Shown: one piece after another, positions 26,392-39,113 of the stretch | Layout of the letters: each line of letters starts with the position of its first letter | Numbering within the stretch: the stretch's first letter is position 1 | The notes under the pieces: generated by a model | What the model saw: the letters and a program-made list of their open reading frames with translations, nothing else | What the model was told of the DNA's origin: nothing | Databases searched by the model: none | Origin: Leucobacter sp. OLIS6 | GTDB taxonomy: Bacteria > Actinomycetota > Actinomycetes > Actinomycetales > Microbacteriaceae | Length of the DNA: 64,000 nucleotides | NCBI RefSeq assembly: GCF_002752355.1 | Contig: NZ_MRAV01000011.1 | Span: forward strand, 490,439 to 554,438 | Direction: 5' to 3' | Translations under genes and position numbers: made by a program

Positions 26392-27759
26392 CTACTGCCC
26401 GGGGGCACCGCCACCGGGACCGCCCATCCCGCCGCCACCGGGACCCGCGTTCGCCTGCGAGGCGTCGTAGGGCGAGCCGTTCGCGGTGATCGTCGCACCC
26501 GTCACCGAAACCTCGCCGTTGCCGTCGAGGGGAGCGTCGCCGCCGTTGTCGGCGCTCGTGATGTCGAGCGTGCCACTGCTCACGGTGATCGTGCCGTTCG
26601 AATCGAGGCCGTCGAAGCCTGCGTGCACGGTGATCGTGCCGCCCGAGATTTCGAGGCGTTCTCCGGTGTCCGTCTCGCGGTCCTCGCCGCCGGTGTTCAG
26701 GCCCGCGGCGTTGATCCCGTCGTCGGCCGCGGTGATGTCGAGCGTGCCGTCGAAGATCGCGACATTGATCGCCTCGATGCCTTCGTCCGACTCGGAGATC
26801 GTGATCGTGCCACCGCCGATCGAGACGATCTGCTCGGCCTTCACGCCGTCGCCCGTCGCGGCAGCGGTGATCTCGCCGCCCGTGATGATGGTGTCGGTCT
26901 GGCCCTGGATGCCGTCATCGCCGGCGGTGATGTCGATGGCGCCGTCAGTGATGAGGATGTAGCCCTTGGTCCCGTCGTCCTCCTGATCGCTCTTCAACCC
27001 ATCGCCGCCGGTCGCGGTCAGACGCAACGCGCCGCCTTCGACCACGAGCGAGTCCTTGCCGCGGAGCGCGTCGTCAGCGGCCGTGACGGCGATATCGCCC
27101 GAGAGGACGACGAGGTCGTCCTTGCTCGTGATGCCGTCGTTGCCGTTCGCGGTGACGGTGAGCGCGCCCTCGCCGCTGATGGTGAGATCGCTCGACGCGG
27201 AGATCGCCGCGTTCGCTTCGGCGTCGTCGGCATAGCTGGAGGCGTCGGAGACGCTGTTCTTCGTGCCGTCGGCGAGATGGATGGCGACGTCGTCAGCGGT
27301 CTGCACGTCGATGGCCGGACCTGCGCTGTTCGTGATCTCGGCGGCGTTCAAGATCAGCACGACCTGCGCGTCCTCGGGCGCCGCGACGACGACGCCGCCG
27401 GTGAGCGAGCCCGAGAGCTCGTACACGCCGGCTTCGGTGATGGTGACGGTTCCGTCTGCGGCCGTGACGCCCGAGGCACCGGACGCGAGGGTCGCCGAGT
27501 CGCCCGAGAGCTTCACCCGGACGGCGTCGTCGGCCGACCACTCGTCGGTGTTGACGGTCGTGTATTCCGCGTTGGCCGCGAGCACCTCATCCGGGCTGAG
27601 ATCACCCGTGAAGGCGGACAGCGCTTCGGCGCTGCTGCCACCGGTGGTGGCGGCCTTCGCGGTCGAGGCGCCGCTCGCCTCGGTCACTGCGGTGGAGCAT
27701 CCGGCGAGCAGCGAGGCTGCGAGCACGAGGGCGGCGGGAAGGATGATGCGTCGTTTCAT
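26392..27759 (-). CDS. Cthe_2159-like carbohydrate-binding lipoprotein
   Basis: 455 residues. Lipobox LLAGCS at residues 17-22, then about 330 residues of parallel beta-helix made of short acidic repeats (GNDGITSKDDLVV, ADDALRGKDSLVV, GGDGLKSDQ, GDDGIQGQTDTIITGG, GDGVKAEQIVSIGG, SDEGIEAINVAIFDG, ADDGINAAG, GFDGLDSNG), ending in a Gly-rich tail (PGGGGMGGPGGGAPGQ). The D-D/E-G-I turns look like calcium sites. Cthe_2159 of Clostridium thermocellum binds cellulose and acidic polysaccharides. Last gene of the seven-gene operon; inferred role is to bind the operon's surface polymer. Confidence 0.85.
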   Translation of the reverse strand: MKRRIILPAALVLAASLLAGCSTAVTEASGASTAKAATTGGSSAEALSAFTGDLSPDEVLAANAEYTTVNTDEWSADDAVRVKLSGDSATLASGASGVTAADGTVTITEAGVYELSGSLTGGVVVAAPEDAQVVLILNAAEITNSAGPAIDVQTADDVAIHLADGTKNSVSDASSYADDAEANAAISASSDLTISGEGALTVTANGNDGITSKDDLVVLSGDIAVTAADDALRGKDSLVVEGGALRLTATGGDGLKSDQEDDGTKGYILITDGAIDITAGDDGIQGQTDTIITGGEITAAATGDGVKAEQIVSIGGGTITISESDEGIEAINVAIFDGTLDITAADDGINAAGLNTGGEDRETDTGERLEISGGTITVHAGFDGLDSNGTITVSSGTLDITSADNGGDAPLDGNGEVSVTGATITANGSPYDASQANAGPGGGGMGGPGGGAPGQ

Positions 27760-27769
27760 GGGATGCCTC

Positions 27770-28543
27770 CTAGGCGATGTGAGCGGAAGTACGGAAGGGG
27801 CCGTTGAGCGTGCGAGACCACTTGTTGCTCGGCAGCTCCGGGTGGAGCGCCGCGGTGCCGGTGCCGAACTTGCTGATGCCGCTCGGGCGATGACCGGCTC
27901 GCCACAGGGCCCGATCGAGCCGGCTCGGGCTGCCGAGCGACTTCGACTCGATGATGAGGTGCTCGGGGAGGGCGATCGTGGTGTCGTCTCGATCGTGCCA
28001 ACGGAGCCTCTGGTCGATGGTGACGCGGCTTCCGTCGGTCATGAGGAGTGTGGTTCGCTCGTACTGGCTGATGAGCGACGGGCGCAGGTCGTCGACGAGG
28101 GCCGCATCGTGCGCGTGCTGGGTGAGGAGCGAGGCGAGGAAATCTCGGCCCTCCCGCGTGAGTTCCTCTCGGTGCGATGGCCGGTACTCCATCCGCTCCT
28201 TCACGGTGCTCCCGCGGCCGCTCTTCGTCTTGAGCTCGAGGTAGGCGGAGCCCGTGTCGACGTAGGTGCGGGTCCGGATCTTGAACCGGCGGCGGCGGCG
28301 CTGGGCCGTGAGCCGGTAACTCAGGTGATCCTCGGTGTCGAAGTAGACCGAGTCGTAGGCGAAGGATCGCCGGCCGCAGATCTCCAGGATCCGGGCGCCC
28401 CGGGTCCCTTCCTCGATCGCGTCCCGAGCCTCCGCGAAGGGGAGGAGGTACTTGCGGTCCATCCGGGTGAGGAGTGCAGCCTCCGAGACGACCTCATCGA
28501 GCGAGGCGCGCGGGTACCGGTCGAGGTCCAGGCGGCCGTTCAT
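27770..28543 (-). CDS. VTC-domain (polyphosphate polymerase-like) protein
   Basis: 257 residues. Conserved basic and acidic tunnel residues of the VTC/TTM fold are visible: RMDRKYLLP, SVYFDTEDHLSYRL, RRRRRFKIRTRTY, AYLELKTKSG, STVKERMEY, ISQYERTTLL, RVTIDQRLRW, HLIIESKS and SKFGTGTA. In yeast Vtc4 this fold makes polyphosphate from ATP; bacterial relatives beside DUF4956 and CotH/Cthe_2159 proteins have no established product. Start ATG overlaps the DUF4956 stop (ATGA). Cytosolic: no membrane segment. Confidence 0.87.
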   Translation of the reverse strand: MNGRLDLDRYPRASLDEVVSEAALLTRMDRKYLLPFAEARDAIEEGTRGARILEICGRRSFAYDSVYFDTEDHLSYRLTAQRRRRRFKIRTRTYVDTGSAYLELKTKSGRGSTVKERMEYRPSHREELTREGRDFLASLLTQHAHDAALVDDLRPSLISQYERTTLLMTDGSRVTIDQRLRWHDRDDTTIALPEHLIIESKSLGSPSRLDRALWRAGHRPSGISKFGTGTAALHPELPSNKWSRTLNGPFRTSAHIA

Positions 28544-29193
28544 CGTACGAGCCCGACTTCGCCGGCCTCTGCGACGCGGGGTGCTCCCTGTGCCTGCGGC
28601 GAGGTCCGTGCGGCACGGACGCCGGGGCGCCCGTGCGCGCCGCTGCGTGCGACCCGGTAACGCACGTCCACGAGCACCGAATCGTTCACGAGATCGAGTT
28701 GCTGCACGGTGACCTGGTGCACGGTTCCGCCGAGGCGACGGCCGAGCTCGTCGCGGAGTTCGTCCTCGTTCGCGATCGCGCGATCGAGGCGCACCACCTG
28801 GTGACGGGCGTGCGAGAGGAACGCCGGGTGGTCAGCGATCCACATGGTGAGGAGGATCAAGCCGATGAGCGCGGCCGGAATGAGGGGGCCCGACGAGGAG
28901 AGACCCCCGATGAGGCCCATCGCGAGCGCCGCGAAGTAGTAGGCCACCTCGCGTTGCGAGATCTCCGATGAACGCAGACGGATGATCGACAGGACACCGA
29001 AGAGGCCGAGGCCGAGACCTGCGGCGATCTCGGCGGTGCTGAGCACCGAGGTCACTGCGAGGACACCGACGTTCACTCCGATGAAGGCGACGACGAGGTC
29101 GCGCCGGCGATGGCGCGGGTAGTACAGGCCGAGCGCGAGGATCGTCGCCGCGACGAGGTCGATGCCTGCGATGATGAGGCCGTTCGTGGTCAA
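28540..29193 (-). CDS. DUF4956 membrane protein
   Basis: 217 residues, starting at TTG 29193 within the stop of the upstream glycosyltransferase gene (TTGA overlap). Four membrane helices in the first 120 residues, with the family's signature LGLGLFGVLSIIRLRSSEIS and QREVAYYFAALAMGL. The C-terminal half is a soluble ferredoxin-like domain. DUF4956 proteins nearly always sit next to VTC-domain genes, as here, and may form the membrane partner for export of the polymer. The function is unproven. Confidence 0.85.
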   Translation of the reverse strand: MTTNGLIIAGIDLVAATILALGLYYPRHRRRDLVVAFIGVNVGVLAVTSVLSTAEIAAGLGLGLFGVLSIIRLRSSEISQREVAYYFAALAMGLIGGLSSSGPLIPAALIGLILLTMWIADHPAFLSHARHQVVRLDRAIANEDELRDELGRRLGGTVHQVTVQQLDLVNDSVLVDVRYRVARSGAHGRPGVRAARTSPQAQGAPRVAEAGEVGLVR

Positions 29194-30368
29194 GATTCGC
29201 TCCTGAAGTCTCGGTTTCGGGTCTGGGTGTCGAGCGTGCGGACGGGGTCCGTCGTCCCCGTGATTACGAGTAGATCCGGAACGTCTAAGCCGTTCTTATG
29301 CGGAATCTGTACGGAGGCTTCAGGCTCGGTGCGGAAGACCGTGCGGCGCTGCACCCGGTAGCTCATGATGAAGAGCACGAGCTCGGTGATGATCTTGGCG
29401 GCGAGGAGCGGGACACCGATCCCGGTGAGGTACGACATCCATGCGATGTTCGAGAGCAGGAGGACGCCCGCGAGCAGCGCGTAGGAGACCGCCTGCCGGG
29501 CCGCTCCATCGCGGCCGCGGTGCAGGAACACGACGCGGCGGTTGACCCAGAAGTTCACGCTCGAACTCAGGAGCCGGGCGAGCACGATCGAGAGGGTGAG
29601 CATGCCCGTGAGCGCATCGAACACGAACAGCGCCGCGGCATCCACGAGGAACGACGCGAACGAGGATGCGGCGAACGCGAGCACCGGGGCGAGGACCCGG
29701 ATCGAATCGAGGAGCGGTCTGAAGTGGCTCGACGCGTTGTCATCGAGATACACGGTCCGGATCGGCACCTCCTCGGCTCGGAGGCCGGCGCCGCGGAGCT
29801 CGAGCAGCGTTCGCTGCTCGTACTCGAAGCGATCGCCTTTCACGGTGAGGAGCCATCGCAGCGCTTCCGGCGGAAACCCGCGGAGCCCGGTCTGGGTATC
29901 GCTCAGCGACCATCCGGCGGCGAGCCGGAAGAGACCGCGAGAGGCCATGTTGCCGAACCGGCTGCGGAACGGGACCTCGCCGGAGAAGTCCCGGCAGCCG
30001 AGCACGATGGTCTGCGGCCGCTTCTGCCGCTCTGCCCCGACACGGTCGGCGACCGCGAGGATGTCGGCGACGGCGTGCTGTCCGTCGCCGTCCGCGGTCA
30101 CCACCTCGTGGCCCGGATACCTCTCGAGCACCCGACGGAAGCCCGTCTTGAGCGCCGCGCCCTTGCCCCGGTTCTCGGAGTGTGCGACGACATCGGCACC
30201 CGCGCGGGAGCACTCGGCGAAGAGCGGTGCGAAGCCGGCGCCGGAGCCGTCATCCACGACGAGGACCCGGGACATCGAATCGCCCCGCTCGGACAGGGCG
30301 TGCACGAGCCGTCCGACGAGCGCGGGGAGCTGCTCGTTCGGCTCGTAGGAGGGGATGAGGATGATCAT
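29190..30368 (-). CDS. GT2 glycosyltransferase fused to GtrA membrane domain
   Basis: 392 residues. Residues 1-225 are a GT-A dolichyl-phosphate-sugar-synthase-like domain: ILIPSYEPNEQL, VLVVDDGSGAGF, NRGKGAALKTGF, VTADGDGQH (metal-binding Asp) and SDTQTGLRGFP. Residues 232-350 are a four-helix GtrA flippase-type domain (SFASFLVDAAALFVFDALTG, NFWVNRRVVF, IMSYRVQRRTVF). Such fusions make a lipid-linked sugar and translocate it for surface glycosylation. Overlaps both neighbours by 4 bp. A 35-residue polar tail follows the last helix. Confidence 0.9.
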   Translation of the reverse strand: MIILIPSYEPNEQLPALVGRLVHALSERGDSMSRVLVVDDGSGAGFAPLFAECSRAGADVVAHSENRGKGAALKTGFRRVLERYPGHEVVTADGDGQHAVADILAVADRVGAERQKRPQTIVLGCRDFSGEVPFRSRFGNMASRGLFRLAAGWSLSDTQTGLRGFPPEALRWLLTVKGDRFEYEQRTLLELRGAGLRAEEVPIRTVYLDDNASSHFRPLLDSIRVLAPVLAFAASSFASFLVDAAALFVFDALTGMLTLSIVLARLLSSSVNFWVNRRVVFLHRGRDGAARQAVSYALLAGVLLLSNIAWMSYLTGIGVPLLAAKIITELVLFIMSYRVQRRTVFRTEPEASVQIPHKNGLDVPDLLVITGTTDPVRTLDTQTRNRDFRSES

Positions 30369-31462
30369 GATTCCGCTCCTGCGATGTAGAGGATGTCGCT
30401 CGTGCCGCGCTCTCCTCCGTTCGACGGGCGGTTGATGACCTCGCCGTTGAAGTACATGGTCGATGAGCCGCCGCCGTCGAGGTTGTACGCCGTCGTCGCG
30501 CCGAGGCTCTGCATGATCTTCGCGAGTTCGGTCATCGTGACGCCGCGGCTGTAGCCGGTGTCCCGGCCATCGACGACCACGAACACGAGGTGGTTGTCAT
30601 CGATCACGCCGACGGCGGTTCGCGGCTGTTCGCCCTGGATCGAATGGTTGCCGAAGTTCGTGTCGACCTCCGTGGCGTCGATCCCGTCGAGGATCTGGCT
30701 GTCCTCGATGAGTGCCGGTCCGAAGCTCAGCGTGTTCCACACGCCGTCGGCGACAAGCTCGTCGGCGTCGGTGCCGGTCTCGTCGTAGATCTTCACCGAG
30801 CCGTCGGAGGAGAACGCGAGTCCGGTGCGGGCGGGCTCGTCGCGATACACGACGCCGTTCCGGATGACGATGCCGGTGTCGCGGAAGCCGTAGTAGTCGC
30901 CGTTGATCGCGAACACGGCGCCGTTGTCTTCGGCGATCCCGCTCGTCGTCTCGGTGATGTTCTCACCGAACTGGTTGTTCGCGAAAGCGGAACGGAGCTC
31001 CGTCGCATCGCCGAGGGTGACGTCGGCGACGTAGTAGGTGACCGTGTCATCGCCCGACCCGGTCGTCACCTGCTTCACGGCGACCGAGGTATCGCCCTTC
31101 GTGTACGAGTCGTCGCCGAGGGTCGCGGTGTCATCGGCGCCGTCGGCGTTCGCGGTGGTCGACGAGCGGGCCGTGCCTGCGTTCGCCGCCTCGTAGCTCG
31201 CGACATCCGAGATCTCGACCTTCGGGATGAGGAAGCGATCGACGGCCCAGGCCGCACCGCCGCCCATGCTGAGCATGACGACGAGTCCTCCTGCGAGGAG
31301 CGCGCTGCGGCGGTTCTTGCGTCGACGCTGACGGTCCGCGTCCGCTGCGCTGCGGGACGCCGGGGGATCGGGTCGGGGCTCCGTGGGGACGTCCGCGGCA
31401 TCCGGAACGTTCTCATTTCGCGTCGGTTCGGAGTCGGGGTGGGAGCGATGCTGCGGGTTCAT
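30365..31462 (-). CDS. Membrane-anchored NAGPA-type phosphodiester glycosidase
   Basis: 365 residues. Disordered Arg/Pro-rich cytoplasmic tail (1-50), one membrane helix (about 53-75), then an extracellular domain of the phosphodiester glycosidase family (uncovering enzyme NAGPA): VFAINGDYYGFRDTGIVIRNG, TNFGNHSIQGEQPRTAVGV, DGRDTGYSRGVTMTELAKIM and NLDGGGSSTMYFNGEV. The family cleaves sugar-phosphodiester bonds, as in teichoic-acid-like or phosphoglycan chains, so it could trim the operon's product. Confidence 0.9.
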   Translation of the reverse strand: MNPQHRSHPDSEPTRNENVPDAADVPTEPRPDPPASRSAADADRQRRRKNRRSALLAGGLVVMLSMGGGAAWAVDRFLIPKVEISDVASYEAANAGTARSSTTANADGADDTATLGDDSYTKGDTSVAVKQVTTGSGDDTVTYYVADVTLGDATELRSAFANNQFGENITETTSGIAEDNGAVFAINGDYYGFRDTGIVIRNGVVYRDEPARTGLAFSSDGSVKIYDETGTDADELVADGVWNTLSFGPALIEDSQILDGIDATEVDTNFGNHSIQGEQPRTAVGVIDDNHLVFVVVDGRDTGYSRGVTMTELAKIMQSLGATTAYNLDGGGSSTMYFNGEVINRPSNGGERGTSDILYIAGAES

Positions 31463-31485
31463 GCCCCCAGGAAACGGGACGGGAC

Positions 31486-31491
31486 TAAGCG
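31486..31491. promoter_or_regulatory. TAAGCG motif upstream of the NAGPA gene
   Basis: TAAGCG with flanking GGGAC/ACTGTT lies in the 33-bp gap between the kinase and NAGPA genes. A very similar element precedes the response-regulator gene at 33779, so both may be sites for that regulator. Confidence 0.3.
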
Positions 31492-31495
31492 ACTG

Positions 31496-33007
31496 TTATG
31501 GGGAAGCCGGTTGTTCGCCGTGGACGCGCCCGGGGGCCGTCGCGGCCGGCAGGCGGATCCGGAACACGGTCTCACCCGGCCGGCTCTCGAGCGAGAGTTC
31601 ACCGTCGTGCGCGTCTACGATGGCGGAGGCGATCGCGAGCCCGAGCCCGGTGCCTCCGGTGTGCCTGGCACGCGACGCATCACCGCGCACGAAGCGTTCG
31701 AACACCGCTGCAGCGAGGGCCTCGTCGATTCCCGGTCCGTCGTCGCGGATCTCCACGATCGTCGTGTCGGCCTCCAGACGAAGGGCTGCGGTCACAACGG
31801 TTCCGGCGGGCGTATGCACGCGGGCGTTGTTCAGGAGATTCATGAGCACCTGATGGAGACGCATCGAATCGCCTGTGATCGTCACCCCGGTCTCCGGGAC
31901 GTCGAGCAGCCACTCGTGGTCGCCTCCGGCGGCGCTCGCGTCGCTCACGGCATCGACGATGAGCTGCGTGAGGTTGACCGGTTCGGTGCGTACTTCGGTG
32001 CCTTCGTCGAGACGGGCGAGAAGCAGGAGGTCCTCGACGATCTTCGTCATTCGTACCGACTCCGACTCGATCCTGCCGAGCGTGTGCACCGCGCTCTCGG
32101 GCAGCTGCTCGGGAGACCGGCGCGTCAGCTCGGCGTATCCGCGGATCGAGGCGATCGGGGTGCGCAACTCGTGGCTTGCGTCGGCCACGAACTGGCGGAG
32201 CTTCTCCTCGCTCTCCTGCCGTGCGGAGAGCGCGCCGGAGACATGGTCAAGGAGGATGTTCAACGCCTGGCCGACCTGGCCGACCTCGCTCTCGGGCCGT
32301 GCATCACGCTGTTCGACACGCACGGGAAGCGCGACGTCCCCCTGGTGCAGCGGGATCTCGGCGACCTGCGTCGCGGCCTCGGCGATCCGGTCGAGCGGGC
32401 GCAGCGCTGCGCGTACGAACAGCGTGCCGGCGAACGCGGTGAGCACGATGCCGGCGAGGCCCGCCGCTCCGATGAGGAGCGAGAGCTGAAGCACCGTCGC
32501 GTTCGTGTCTGCGAGCGGGAGACCCATGATGAGGGCGCTGCTCCCGGTATTCGACGTGCCCCCGGCCTGCTGAGCGGTGCGCATGATCATCCGGTAGCTG
32601 CCGAGACCGCTGACCTCCACCGTTCTCGGGGTCCCGTCTTCGAAGCCCGCGTTCAACGCCGCGAGCTCCTCGTCGGTGAGGTTCCGCACCTTCCCGTCGC
32701 TTGCGATCACCTGCGCCGAGGTGGCCTCGCCGTTCCTGGACAGGCCGGCGATGGTTCCCTCGCGCTGCCCGGGCATTCCGAGTACTTCGGCGCCTGGCGG
32801 GGCGCCCCGACTCCCGGGGGGCTTGCCGTTCGGGGCGAACTGGTCGAAGGAGCGATCGGTCGCGGTGGCCAACTGCGTATCGAGGCGTTCGATGAGGTCG
32901 TTCCTCAACGCGATCGTGCTGAAGGTACCGACCGCGGCCGTGAGCACCGTGACGAGGACGATGATCCCGACCACGAGGGTGCGCCGGAGCGGCTGAGCCC
33001 GAGTCAC
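31496..33007 (-). CDS. Sensor histidine kinase (OmpR-system partner)
   Basis: 503 residues from GTG 33007, overlapping the response regulator stop by 4 bp. Membrane helix 1 (10-33), extracytoplasmic sensor about 34-170, helix 2 (172-198), HAMP, then HisKA with FVADASHELRTPIASIRG (phospho-acceptor His 279) and HATPase with NLLNNARVHTPAG (N box), DDGPGIDEALAAAVFERF and GGTGLGLAI. Classic PhoR/BaeS architecture. Located upstream of and collinear with the surface-polymer genes, which it presumably controls. Confidence 0.93.
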   Translation of the reverse strand: MTRAQPLRRTLVVGIIVLVTVLTAAVGTFSTIALRNDLIERLDTQLATATDRSFDQFAPNGKPPGSRGAPPGAEVLGMPGQREGTIAGLSRNGEATSAQVIASDGKVRNLTDEELAALNAGFEDGTPRTVEVSGLGSYRMIMRTAQQAGGTSNTGSSALIMGLPLADTNATVLQLSLLIGAAGLAGIVLTAFAGTLFVRAALRPLDRIAEAATQVAEIPLHQGDVALPVRVEQRDARPESEVGQVGQALNILLDHVSGALSARQESEEKLRQFVADASHELRTPIASIRGYAELTRRSPEQLPESAVHTLGRIESESVRMTKIVEDLLLLARLDEGTEVRTEPVNLTQLIVDAVSDASAAGGDHEWLLDVPETGVTITGDSMRLHQVLMNLLNNARVHTPAGTVVTAALRLEADTTIVEIRDDGPGIDEALAAAVFERFVRGDASRARHTGGTGLGLAIASAIVDAHDGELSLESRPGETVFRIRLPAATAPGRVHGEQPASP

Positions 33008-33756
33008 TGCGCGGGCCTCAAGGCATAGCCCATGCCGTGGACCGTGTGGATCATCGGCGGACCCAGCCGGTTGATCTTCTTCCGGAGGTACGAGATGTAG
33101 AGCTCGACGACGTTGCTGCGCTCGTCGAGCTCATCGTTCCAGACGCGGCTGAGGAGCTGCGCCTTGCTCATCAGGTGCGACGGATTGTGCATGAGGAAGC
33201 TCAGCAGCTTGAACTCGGTGGCCGTCAGACTGATCGGAGTGTTCGCGCGACTGCACTCGAACGTCTCCTCGTTGAGCACGAGATCGCCCACGCGGAGCTC
33301 CGCTGCACCGCTCGAGACGAGAGTGAGGTTCGACCGGCGGAGCAGCGCGCGCAGGCGGGCGATGAGCTCTTCGAGACTGAAGGGCTTCGTGAGGTAGTCG
33401 TCTCCTCCGATCCCGAGGCCGGTGACGCGGTCGGATACGGCGTCCTTCGCGGTCAGCAGAAGAATCGGCATGAACAAGCCGTCGGCGTGCAGTCGCTGCA
33501 CCACTCGGAGGCCGTCGATATGCGGCATCATGATGTCGAGCACCACGATGTCCGGCGTGACCTCACGGATCACGCTGAGCGCTTCCTGGCCATCCTTCGC
33601 GGTGCTGACGTCCCAGCCTTCGTAGCCGAGCGCGGTCGAGATCACCTCGACGAGCGACTCCTCGTCGTCGACCACGACCGCCCGGATCGGCGACCCGTCG
33701 GCGCGCGTGAGGACCGCCCAGTCGATCGCCGGGTCGGGGTACTGCTCGCAGCTCAT
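33004..33756 (-). CDS. OmpR/PhoB family response regulator
   Basis: 250 residues. Receiver domain: acidic pair in AVVVDDEESL, phospho-acceptor Asp 74 in VVLDIMMPHIDG, switch LLTAKD and Lys in YLTKPF. The C-terminal winged helix carries SLTATEFKLLSFLMHNPSHLMSK and ERSNVVELYISYLRKKI, the latter being the recognition helix. It has an unusually long 24-residue segment before the receiver. The ATG is preceded at exactly six nucleotides by AATACT (33768-33763), so the mRNA is likely leaderless. Confidence 0.93.
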   Translation of the reverse strand: MSCEQYPDPAIDWAVLTRADGSPIRAVVVDDEESLVEVISTALGYEGWDVSTAKDGQEALSVIREVTPDIVVLDIMMPHIDGLRVVQRLHADGLFMPILLLTAKDAVSDRVTGLGIGGDDYLTKPFSLEELIARLRALLRRSNLTLVSSGAAELRVGDLVLNEETFECSRANTPISLTATEFKLLSFLMHNPSHLMSKAQLLSRVWNDELDERSNVVELYISYLRKKINRLGPPMIHTVHGMGYALRPAQ

Positions 33757-36512: not shown

Positions 36513-36565
36513 TCAACTAAATCCGGGTGGCAACGGTGCTCCCCGGAGTTGCATGGGGGAAAACA

Positions 36566-37135
36566 ATGACCGTTTCCAGTCAGACCGAATCCATTGACAC
36601 CGACCGCCGGGCCGCGAAGCGGCGCAAGATCGGCGCCCTGCTCGCGGGCGGGCTCGTGCTCGGCGTGGGCGCCGCAGTCACACTCGCATCGTGGAACGAT
36701 TCCGAGTTCGCGAAGGCCAACCTGACGGCGGGTACCTTCGTATTCCAGGGCTCCATCGACGGCACCACCTTCGCCGATCACGCCAGCTCCGGCGGTGCGG
36801 CCTCGTTGACCTTCAGCACGGGCTTCGACAAGCTCAGCCCGAACGCCGTGGTCTACGCGCCCTACGCGCTCAAGCTCACCGGCTCGTCGCCGGCGACGCT
36901 CACCCCCGCCACTCCGACGGTGACGGGTGCGCTCAGCGGCAAGGCGACCTTCGCCGCGGTGCAGACGACGACCTTCGGGTGCAACGCCGGCGCGTTCACG
37001 GGCGGCACCGCTCTGGTGACGACGATGTCTCCCGGCGACACGGTGAACCTCTGCCTCCAGGTGACGGCGGGATCCACCATCGCGCAGGGCGATACCGGAA
37101 CCGTCGTCTGGCAGTGGGACGCCGTCTCGCAGTAG
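36566..37135 (+). CDS. SipW-dependent (TasA/camelysin-like) exported protein 1
   Basis: 189 residues from ATG 36566. Basic N-terminus (AAKRRKIG), hydrophobic stretch ALLAGGLVLGVGAAVTLASW, then the hallmark NDSEFAKANLTAGTF. This is the "alternate signal" arrangement in which a SipW-type peptidase cuts just before the aromatic residue and a W-T/N-D-x-E motif. The mature part is beta-rich with two Cys (GCNAG, LCLQV) that may pair. The C-terminal VVWQWDAVSQ is typical of the family. Likely a surface or fibre subunit by analogy to TasA; first gene of the cassette. Confidence 0.85.
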   Translation: MTVSSQTESIDTDRRAAKRRKIGALLAGGLVLGVGAAVTLASWNDSEFAKANLTAGTFVFQGSIDGTTFADHASSGGAASLTFSTGFDKLSPNAVVYAPYALKLTGSSPATLTPATPTVTGALSGKATFAAVQTTTFGCNAGAFTGGTALVTTMSPGDTVNLCLQVTAGSTIAQGDTGTVVWQWDAVSQ

Positions 37136-37828
37136 GTGCGGAGCACTGCTGTGACTGCGCCTGCGCCGAACGGGTCGGGGCGGTCGCGCCGAGCGCGCCG
37201 CCTCGACCTCGTCGCGCGCCGACGCGGCCTGACCTTCCGCCGAGTCCGCGCGCTCATGGCCGGGGCGCTCGTGCTGGGCGTCGGCGCGACCGCGACGCTC
37301 GCCGCCTGGACCGATCAGGAGAACGCGAAGACCACCCTCACCGCGGGCACCTTCGCGTTGGAATCCCTCGTCTCGGGCGGCAGCTGGACCGAAACGACGG
37401 CGCCGGCCGCGGCCGCGGTGCTCCCGCTCGCGGCGACCGGCATGATGCCGGGAACGAGCAAGGCCGCCTGGATCCAGATCCGGACCAAGGCCGGCAGCGG
37501 AGCCGGCACCGTGAACCTCACCGGCGTCACGCTCGCGACGACACCCGCCGACCCGGCCGTCGACCCGAACAAGTCGTTCGGCGACGCGCTCACGGTGCGC
37601 ATCGGCACGGTCGCGACGACGGGCGACTGCGTTCCGACCTGGACCGGCGGCTCCCTCGCGACCAAGATCAGCACGTTGCCGACCGGGCTCGCCCCGGCGA
37701 CCGTCGGTGCGAACTCCGCCACCGTCGCGATCTACTGCGTCGTGGTCACGCTCCCCACGAACGCGGCGAACACGGCGCAGGGCGGCAGCGTGACCCCGAC
37801 CTGGGCGTTCACGGGAACCTCGAGCTGA
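37136..37828 (+). CDS. SipW-dependent exported protein 2
   Basis: 230 residues from GTG 37136, immediately after the previous stop; a GTG five codons in is an alternative. Arg-rich N-terminus, hydrophobic ALMAGALVLGVGATATLAAW, then TDQENAKTTLTAGTF, the same post-signal motif as its two relatives. The mature domain is Thr/Ala-rich beta sequence with Cys in GDCVPTW and IYCVVV. It is a paralogue of protein 1 but diverged beyond the signal, so subunits with different roles are likely. Confidence 0.85.
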   Translation: MRSTAVTAPAPNGSGRSRRARRLDLVARRRGLTFRRVRALMAGALVLGVGATATLAAWTDQENAKTTLTAGTFALESLVSGGSWTETTAPAAAAVLPLAATGMMPGTSKAAWIQIRTKAGSGAGTVNLTGVTLATTPADPAVDPNKSFGDALTVRIGTVATTGDCVPTWTGGSLATKISTLPTGLAPATVGANSATVAIYCVVVTLPTNAANTAQGGSVTPTWAFTGTSS

Positions 37829-37838
37829 GCGGGCACCG

Positions 37839-39113
37839 ATGACTCAGGAACGCGCGGGCTGGGGGCGGGCGGCGCGGACGACGGGACGCGTCGTCCGCGA
37901 GACGCTGCTCACCGTCGCGGCGCTCGGGGGCGCCGCGTGCATCGTGCTCGTGATCCTCGCGTTCACGGGCGGCTACTCGCTCATCATGTTCAAGACCGGA
38001 TCGATGTCGCCGACGATCCCGACCGGTTCCGTCGCGCTGGTGCGCGAGATCCCGGCCGCGGAGGCGAAGGTCGGCGACGTGCTCACGGTCGACCGGCCGG
38101 GCAAGCTCCCGGTGACCCACCGCGTCACCTCGGTCGCGCCCGCCGACGGCGACCCGAGCGAGCGCGTGATCACCCTGAAGGGCGACGCGAACCAGACCGA
38201 GGACCCCGAGCCCTACCGGATCGCCCACGCCCGGGTCGTGATCGGTTCGGTGCCGGGGCTGGCGACCGTGATCGTCTGGTTCGGCAGCCCGTGGATCATG
38301 GGCGGGATCACCGTCGCCGCCGCGATCCTCGTCACCTGGGCGTTCTGGCCACGCGAGCGGGAGTACCGCGATCGGAGGTCGACGAAGCGATCCGCTGCTC
38401 CGGTGGTGAGCGGCGCCCTGGCGCTCGCGGCGGTGCTGGGGGCCGGCGGCTCGGTGCTCCTCTCGGCCCCGACTCCGGCCGGCGCTGCTCCGATCGTGGC
38501 TGCTCCATCGAGCGCCTCGGACATCCTGAGCCTGAGGTCCGACCTCGCGCCCGACGCTGTGCTGCAGCTGAGCCGTGATCGTCCGGTGTACTGGCACGTG
38601 GACGCCGACGCATCGCGGGCGCCCGGCGACGGGTCTCTCTCGATCTCGCTCGCCGGGGCGGGTGACTCGTCGCTCGGCCTGCGCGCAGAGGTGCGGACCT
38701 GCGCGGCGGCCTGGACCTCGGATGGATGCCGCGCGGGGGAGCAGCTGCTCCGGGCCGATGGACCGGTGCTGCTCGACGGGCGGTTCTCGCGCGTGCTCAC
38801 GGTCGCCACGCCGTTCGATGCGCACCTGCGGATCGCGCTCACCGCAGACCCGCGGCCCGGAGCCGGGGCGGACGGCGCCGAAGCCGGTCCGCTCGCGCGC
38901 GGCAGCCTCACACTGCGCGCCGACGCGGGCGAAGATACCGAACAGGTCGGGATCGGCGGGGAGGGCCCGCTCGCCCGCACCGGCTGGGAACCCGCACGCC
39001 TGATTGCGGCACCGGCCGCCGCCGCTGTGGGCCTCGGGATCGCGCTGCTCGCGCGACGTCGGGTTCGAGATTCTGCGGGCGATGCCGTCTCCGCCGAAGG
39101 GATCGCCCAGTGA
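37839..39113 (+). CDS. sipW: SipW-type signal peptidase I fused to a LARTG-anchored surface domain
   Basis: 424 residues. Residues 1-165 are an archaeal/ER-type (S26B) signal peptidase: helix 22-42, catalytic Ser 55 in FKTGSMSPTIPTGS, His 94 in VTHRVTSV, where bacterial type I enzymes use Lys, GDANQTEDPEPYRI, and a second helix (about 140-170). After a third hydrophobic stretch (about 190-212) comes a 165-residue extracellular beta-type domain (VYWHVDADAS, CAAAWTSDGC), then LARTG at 378-382, a hydrophobic helix and Arg tail, a sortase-like sorting signal. Ordinary SipW is under 200 residues, so the tail is an extra module. It presumably processes the three neighbouring exported proteins. Confidence 0.88.
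   Translation: MTQERAGWGRAARTTGRVVRETLLTVAALGGAACIVLVILAFTGGYSLIMFKTGSMSPTIPTGSVALVREIPAAEAKVGDVLTVDRPGKLPVTHRVTSVAPADGDPSERVITLKGDANQTEDPEPYRIAHARVVIGSVPGLATVIVWFGSPWIMGGITVAAAILVTWAFWPREREYRDRRSTKRSAAPVVSGALALAAVLGAGGSVLLSAPTPAGAAPIVAAPSSASDILSLRSDLAPDAVLQLSRDRPVYWHVDADASRAPGDGSLSISLAGAGDSSLGLRAEVRTCAAAWTSDGCRAGEQLLRADGPVLLDGRFSRVLTVATPFDAHLRIALTADPRPGAGADGAEAGPLARGSLTLRADAGEDTEQVGIGGEGPLARTGWEPARLIAAPAAAAVGLGIALLARRRVRDSAGDAVSAEGIAQ

Follow-up and report, generated by a model that had tools for sequence, protein, structure and literature searches.

A Leucobacter operon joining a predicted Vtc4-type polyphosphate polymerase to DUF4956 and Cthe_2159 family proteins: a candidate surface polyphosphate system

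What does a bacterium make with an operon in which a protein resembling the yeast polyphosphate (polyP) polymerase Vtc4 is encoded together with a membrane protein, a lipoprotein, two sugar-handling proteins and a two-component system? The question is raised by a locus of Leucobacter sp. OLIS6 lying in a window of 64,000 nucleotides (the whole stretch of contig NZ_MRAV01000011.1 that was analysed). The window's list of open reading frames (ORFs) places seven of them at 33756-26392, all on the minus strand, in the order response regulator (RR), histidine kinase (HK), NAGPA, a fusion of glycosyltransferase family 2 and GtrA domains (GT2-GtrA), DUF4956, VTC and Cthe_2159. By coordinates, four of the six junctions (RR/HK, NAGPA/GT2-GtrA, GT2-GtrA/DUF4956 and DUF4956/VTC) are 4-bp overlaps, and the gaps from VTC to Cthe_2159 and from HK to NAGPA are 10 bp and 33 bp, respectively. 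An earlier, sequence-only reading of this DNA had named these seven genes on one strand and had counted five junctions that overlap or leave at most 10 bp; the coordinates and a Pfam scan confirm both statements. We observed a Vtc4-like model fold with Vtc4 catalytic residues, a DUF4956-VTC pair that is hardly ever broken, Cthe_2159 and NAGPA genes that co-occur with it, and an alternation of linked Cthe_2159 and CotH genes. The explanation that we place first, at a little under an even chance, is that a Vtc4-type polymerase and DUF4956 export polyP to the surface, where Cthe_2159 holds it; the activity and the export are predictions.

The VTC domain protein (27770..28543, minus strand), a predicted Vtc4-type polyP polymerase, matched the Pfam family PF09359 with 84.6 bits, the curated cut-off being 23. 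In the alignment, the catalytic Vtc4 residues R264, R266 and E426 correspond to R90, R92 and E199 of the window protein and are kept in 63/63 relatives (alignment and tree omit L027, L107 and L108, which have long or read-through frames, and the partial L042 and L043). The Vtc4-type R-x3-K is present on the N-terminal strand, and the tunnel residues of Vtc4 were retained save K455, which is G222 here; the earlier proposal, which loss of the tunnel would have refuted, thus withstands this check. The structural model showed a triphosphate tunnel metalloenzyme (TTM) fold closest to Vtc4; Vtc proteins filled rows 1 to 13 of the Foldseek list and rows 1 to 8 of the VIA-align list. A profile search of the PDB with VTC matched Vtc chains alone; the profile was needed, as a single-sequence search with the window VTC did not return Vtc4. 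Judged from sequence and model, the window protein is very probably a Vtc4-type polymerase, likely making polyP from ATP.

The operon resembles the yeast VTC complex (Vtc4/Vtc3/Vtc1) in the TTM fold of the model, in R264/R266/E426 and further tunnel residues, and in pairing a polymerase with a membrane protein. In yeast, the polymerase tunnel leads onto a membrane channel, which provides a rationale for synthesis coupled to translocation (PMC9911596). It differs from yeast in that K455 is not kept, that Pfam found neither an SPX domain nor a Vtc1-type domain in the seven operon proteins, and that the membrane partner is a separately encoded DUF4956 protein. The operon is thus predicted to act like the eukaryotic VTC complex, yet is not one, having no SPX domain by Pfam. 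The main source of polyP in bacteria is held to be PPK1, joined in some by PPK2 (PMC10657179). PPK1 was present in 149/150 genomes of the family, that of the window included, which rules out VTC as a substitute for PPK1. If our explanation is true, an extra Vtc4-type polymerase with a membrane protein and a lipoprotein in PPK1 genomes would point to dedicated polyP export.

The neighbourhood of VTC was compared in 68 loci, made up of the window, 27 named loci and 40 stretches of other genomes, the last covering every other VTC genome in the family sample (15) and 22/39 further VTC genomes of a phylum sample. Note that the 27 named loci were found with peptides of the window VTC, hence are biased to close kin, that the 68 include near-duplicates (L034/L037/L041; L031/L033/L036/L038; L097/L100), and that the neighbourhood limit of 7 kb and the bit-score thresholds were our choice. 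DUF4956 adjoined VTC in 66/68 loci and shared its strand in 66/66, with 53 loci in the order DUF4956-VTC and 13 in the order VTC-DUF4956. These counts rule out a chance neighbourhood for DUF4956-VTC-Cthe_2159, and they bear out the expectation of the sequence-only reading that a neighbourhood analysis of DUF4956-VTC pairs would find the genes together in other genomes. As for the two remaining loci, the contig of L042 ends at VTC; in L091, which has VTC and CotH, no DUF4956 was found and four long frames round VTC had no Pfam match, but these may be shadow frames, so that a DUF4956 may have been missed. We consider it probable that VTC and DUF4956 form a working pair.

The DUF4956 protein of the window (28540..29193, minus strand; PF16316, 211 bits) is the predicted partner and channel of the polymerase. 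In its AlphaFold2 model (pLDDT, the predicted local distance difference test, 85), five helices are predicted, and the tail is a beta-alpha-beta-beta unit. Invariant columns include L51, G59, G61, R72, R74, S75 and G93, all in the helical part and outside the tail domain, and R27 and R30 are nearly invariant in the alignment. The tail of the Streptococcus intermedius protein is printed as facing the cytosol (PMC12345266); if the DUF4956 tail is likewise cytosolic, the arginines would lie on the cytosolic side. Among the DUF4956 structure matches listed, the Vtc channel and MgtC were absent, which excludes nothing. Ten divergent copies, nine of them beside VTC and one in the VTC-less L134, were all above the Pfam cut-off, two narrowly. 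In L134 (9602-6590, genome G100), the diverged DUF4956 gene (46 bits) shares one base with the start of a regulator gene, after which comes a kinase resembling that of the window; G100 had no VTC match, and DUF4956 is tied there to signalling alone. DUF4956, named by only three papers in the literature searched, gains partners here, as does Cthe_2159.

The last gene of the operon (26392..27759, minus strand) encodes a Cthe_2159 beta-helix family lipoprotein, the predicted surface partner, with 255 bits for PF14262 (cut-off 25.8), the lipobox LAGC and a strongly acidic composition (47 Asp and 23 Glu vs. 16 Lys/Arg). It shares its Pfam family with the solved Cthe_2159 (4peu/4phb) and matches 4peu at E 6e-35; the known protein is described as a binder of cellulose and acid sugars (PMC6712302), whereas the window copy sits in a polyP-type operon. 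Within 7 kb of VTC, 33 of the 68 loci had Cthe_2159 only, 28 had CotH only, one had both (L021) and six had neither; of these six, the contigs of L028 and L042 stop close to VTC, L030 has a partial Cthe_2159 match, and L074, L079 and L083 had none within 7 kb. The Cthe_2159 gene was on the VTC strand in 34/34 cases. On a quick tree of VTC, the partner label switches at least four times, three of the switches being forced by starred branches, and of the three VTC copies in a single genome (G353), two are accompanied by CotH and the third by Cthe_2159. CotH (PF08757) was found neither in the operon by Pfam nor anywhere in the genome of the window; the earlier remark on its absence was therefore right, but CotH is not simply missing, since Cthe_2159 holds its place beside the DUF4956-VTC pair.

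Both partner families may reach the outside of the cell. By a home-made hydropathy rule, which could choose any start codon and had no control set behind it, a signal-like N-terminus was called in 32/34 Cthe_2159 frames and 20/31 CotH frames, with a lipobox in 25 and 11, respectively; among the 11 CotH frames without a call, seven had at most 20 residues upstream of the profile match and were unjudgeable, and four were judged negative. The linked CotH of L034 matches the solved spore-coat CotH at E 4e-8, and linked CotH proteins retain two aspartates (28 and 27 of 30), either of which may correspond to D228. Cthe_2159 and CotH are also listed together among the domains new to rumen fungi (PMC6712302). 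That the lipoprotein, whether Cthe_2159 or CotH, handles exported polyP seems to us possible, at rather less than an even chance.

Gene content across genomes shows the same grouping. In 150 genomes of the family, VTC was found in 16 (15 genera); DUF4956 at E <1e-50 in 17, namely the 16 VTC genomes and G107, with two weak matches more (G100, G091); Cthe_2159 in 15, namely 14/16 VTC genomes and G107; and strong NAGPA in eight, all with DUF4956 and Cthe_2159 and seven with VTC, three weak partial matches occurring elsewhere. Fisher p values, which ignore kinship, were 1e-20 for VTC-DUF4956, 1e-16 for VTC-Cthe_2159 and 5e-9 for DUF4956-NAGPA. In 396 genomes of the phylum, VTC was present in 42, Cthe_2159 in 23 and both in 21 (p 3e-21, kinship again ignored); the Cthe_2159 matches without VTC (G161, G518) were partial or weak. 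CotH was present in 4/16 VTC genomes of the family sample and also in 4/134 others, so it is not exclusive to the system. Two sampled genomes of the same genus had no VTC, DUF4956 or Cthe_2159, which makes the unit accessory. The nearest named VTC relatives are from Leucobacter (best 66% identity), and the VTC of an uncultured Arachnia, a member of another family, nests within the Leucobacter set in the quick tree (99*), which suggests horizontal transfer. The VTC genes of L033 and L038, in records labelled Euryarchaeota and Marinimicrobia, are very near Acidimicrobiia copies; these are either mis-binned contigs or recent transfers.

Taken as a mechanism, the surface polyP explanation would run as follows. 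VTC would polymerise polyP from ATP in the cytosol, and DUF4956 would replace the Vtc1-type channel, with the conserved arginines 27, 30, 72 and 74 at its cytosolic mouth, so that synthesis and translocation would be coupled as in yeast with other membrane parts. We give polyP export via DUF4956 an even chance. The exported polymer would then be acted on by the lipoprotein, Cthe_2159 or CotH; the acidic Cthe_2159 would hold surface polyP, probably through bound calcium. GT2-GtrA would make and flip a polyprenyl-phosphate sugar, itself a phosphodiester, which NAGPA on the outer face, as third component, might spend on a cap or decoration for the polymer or for its carrier, and the two-component system would turn the operon on at a wall or phosphate signal.

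Several observations weigh against this explanation, besides the changed K455 and the SPX and Vtc1-type domains that Pfam did not find. Because Cthe_2159 is acidic, its binding of polyP would need a cation bridge, and what the literature reports as bound by the family is cellulose and polygalacturonic acid (PMC6712302). CotH lies on the VTC strand in 20/28 loci and on the opposite strand in 8/28, and the alternation of partners is limited to the linked gene, both families occurring genome-wide in G018, G058, G082, G180, G262 and G353. None of the PDB searches with DUF4956, whether by single sequence, by profile, with Foldseek or with VIA-align, yielded a match that could be trusted, and the topology of its model is uncertain. 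G107 has DUF4956, Cthe_2159 and NAGPA but no VTC match; either its polymerase was lost in nature or the assembly has a gap. In S. intermedius, the excerpt of PMC12345266 names no effect for deletion of the polyP polymerase gene SIR_1593, and loss of SIR_1592 raises the amount of the polysaccharide Pel, so that regulation fits as well as export. In G107, Cthe_2159 lies directly 3' of DUF4956 (L125, 9263-11167).

A variant gives the exported polymer a use. The VTC-DUF4956 pair would be a polyP synthase and translocase supplying energy-rich phosphate beyond the membrane, where ATP is absent; exchangeable lipoproteins would either take it as phosphoryl donor (the CotH kinase) or scaffold it into a calcium-polyP surface layer (Cthe_2159), and NAGPA would cap it at the expense of the flipped sugar. 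We regard this variant as rather doubtful. If true, secreted CotH kinases would gain a phosphoryl donor, and Cthe_2159 would be recast from a plant-fibre binder to a polyP partner. Where the spore-coat kinase CotH obtains ATP for phosphorylation is called an unanswered question in print (PMC7821199), and polyP as donor would be a testable answer to it.

An alternative without export, which we hold to be unlikely, is that VTC-DUF4956 is a cytosolic phosphate-status device: VTC would keep a small polyP pool, an ACT-like or MgtC-like DUF4956 would sense or relay it and tune a surface glycan, and the lipoprotein would act on that glycan. Pel clusters of streptococci and clostridia are reported to have CotH, polyP polymerase, DUF4956 and DUF4832 among their accessory genes, and a bifidobacterial form is known as well (PMC7112168); the core of the operon already belongs to this set (compare PMC12345266), so that it is not new, contrary to the proposal of the sequence-only reading. 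In S. intermedius, aggregation falls on loss of SIR_1592, with more Pel, or of the CotH gene SIR_1594, with less Pel, and Pel is still made by all four accessory mutants (PMC12345266); from position and architecture, we infer that SIR_1592 is the DUF4956 protein. The status device would suit these shifts in Pel and also the sub-threshold MgtC matches of the DUF4956 relatives L094 and L096, the terminal small alpha-beta domain of the DUF4956 model, which could bind a ligand, and the acidic polysaccharide bound by Cthe_2159 relatives (PMC6712302). However, the invariant DUF4956 columns lie in helices and not in that tail domain, PPK1 is already in all but one of the 150 genomes, and the operon has no polysaccharide polymerase by Pfam.

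A further point against the status device is that the genome of the window had no PelG match. Judged by this one Pel gene, the locus is not a Pel accessory locus. PelG passed its cut-off in 0/53 genomes (52/55 VTC genomes and G107, searched for this one Pel gene), G501 having one sub-cut-off match; 13 of the 53 carry CotH near the DUF4956-VTC pair. The excerpt of PMC12345266 states that its authors did not find the CotH/polymerase/membrane-protein arrangement outside Pel loci, a view widened by these Pel-free loci. The window operon shares the polymerase-DUF4956 core and a secreted partner with SIR_1592-1594, and differs in the missing PelG, in Cthe_2159 in place of CotH, and in the added NAGPA/GT2-GtrA and two-component genes. 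A Cthe_2159-VTC link in bacteria was found in no paper of the literature searched, which lacks most subscription papers. What is new here is the Pel-free Cthe_2159 form, the alternating partners and a sugar pair that is unlinked yet co-occurring. In NELoc-2 of Clostridium perfringens, likewise, a membrane gene comes after every VTC gene and CotH is present (PMC2879425), but the locus is otherwise composed differently and the follower is named tubulin/FtsZ. These followers, CP4_0461 and CP4_0464 ("tubulin/FtsZ GTPase"), agree with DUF4956 in size and position, and their name may be wrong.

The sugar pair is the ground for a further alternative, namely that the operon makes a phosphate-containing, teichoic-acid-like glycan, in which case VTC would use a sugar or a glycan as its acceptor and make no free polyP. 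NAGPA (30365..31462, minus strand; PF09992, 146 bits) has a predicted membrane anchor in its N-terminal region and a predicted outside face; it shows a weak hydrophobic segment at 56-74, and the signal rule was positive in 4/7 relatives and negative for the window copy. Its solved relatives are 6ozd, 3ohg and the NAGPA structures 6pku and 6pky. The NAGPA family cleaves sugar phosphodiesters. GT2-GtrA (29190..30368, minus strand; PF00535, 33.7 bits; PF04138, 45.3 bits) is a predicted polyprenyl-phosphate-sugar synthase and flippase, whose best NCBIfam lead, PpgS, scored 59.5 bits against a cut-off of 370. The presence of both proteins speaks for a phosphoglycan, but NAGPA is absent near VTC in 61/68 loci and strong NAGPA from 9/16 of the family's VTC genomes, which marks it as an add-on; Pfam found no phosphoglycan polymerase among the seven genes, and VTC retains polyP-polymerase residues. 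We hold this alternative to be quite improbable. The earlier proposal of a signal-linked surface phosphate system is fair, but its phosphate-containing glycan is not needed in view of the Vtc4-type residues and the optional sugar pair.

The sugar genes are indeed an optional, separable pair. NAGPA lies directly upstream of GT2-GtrA in 10/10 places where both occur together; the contig of G018 stops just past NAGPA. In three genomes (G058, G082 and G093) a long distance separates the pair from VTC, and in G107 its contig is not that of DUF4956; it adjoins CotH in G058 and a second Cthe_2159 in G107. Such co-occurrence in the absence of linkage is good evidence for a common pathway. Three-component glycosylation of the GtrA/GtrB/GtrX type (GtcA, CsbB, YfhO; PMC7389260) is similar in having a cytosolic GT2 and a GtrA-type flippase, here one fused protein, and dissimilar in that no third, outer-face glycosyltransferase was found by Pfam among the seven operon genes and NAGPA sits upstream. 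NAGPA might be the third component, because a polyprenyl-phosphate sugar is itself a phosphodiester; this is conceivable but doubtful. A lone GT2-GtrA-like frame (L083, 12759-13361, genome G085; 247 bits) lies near VTC without NAGPA or Cthe_2159, and in G093 (L131, 11120-12298) the profile match of GT2-GtrA is split by about 50 extra residues into two blocks that share one frame.

A unit of DUF4956, VTC and Cthe_2159 only, the two-component and sugar genes being unrelated neighbours, is similarly improbable. The first operon gene encodes an OmpR-type response regulator (33004..33756, minus strand; Response_reg 99 and Trans_reg_C 87 bits) and the second, overlapping it by 4 bp, a membrane histidine kinase (31496..33007, minus strand; HisKA and HATPase_c above cut-off) with hydrophobic segments at 11-29 and 175-193 and a HAMP match of 24.8 bits, just below the cut-off of 25. 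Among the NCBIfam matches listed for the regulator (25 of 95), no model reached its cut-off; the best scores were RpaB/PhoB for the regulator (PhoB 194.5, cut-off 296.2) and PnpS/PhoR for the kinase (PnpS 181.5, cut-off 400). With all these scores below their equivalog cut-offs, a phosphate signal is only a lead. A regulator lies near VTC in 19 of the 68 loci and a kinase in 20, so that the earlier description of the system as signal-controlled suits the window locus but is not borne out for the system as a whole. Moreover, a kinase homologue (E <=1e-40) is present in 19/19 family genomes with VTC or DUF4956 and is VTC-linked only in G000, G040 and G119, a looser profile adding a distant VTC-linked copy in G085 (L083); as a specific partner, the kinase is thus a weak candidate. 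These numbers would suit the smaller unit; against it stand the 4-bp overlaps within the operon, the entire window order (RR-HK-NAGPA-GT2-GtrA-DUF4956-VTC-Cthe_2159) in L086 of G119, and the company that strong NAGPA keeps, being found in 8/150 genomes and always with DUF4956 and Cthe_2159, even unlinked.

Finally, that VTC is an ordinary TTM-fold enzyme, e.g., a triphosphatase, making no polymer is very improbable given the Vtc proteins that fill the top structural rows and the profile search, the Vtc4-type R-x3-K and the membrane partner tied to VTC.

As for the surroundings, a promoter scan of the operon found none. A tRNA-Arg gene lies just upstream on the same strand (33957-33881), and the GC content of the operon block (0.67-0.69) is near that of its surroundings (0.66-0.74). 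An AsnC-type neighbour gene matched the two VTC-less genomes of the same genus at only 28 to 31% identity, which is uninformative as an empty-site marker. About 3 kb from the operon, at 36527-39113 of the window, two genes with SipW-dependent-type signal peptides are followed by a signal peptidase I gene, a predicted small secretion cluster for matrix- or fibre-proteins.

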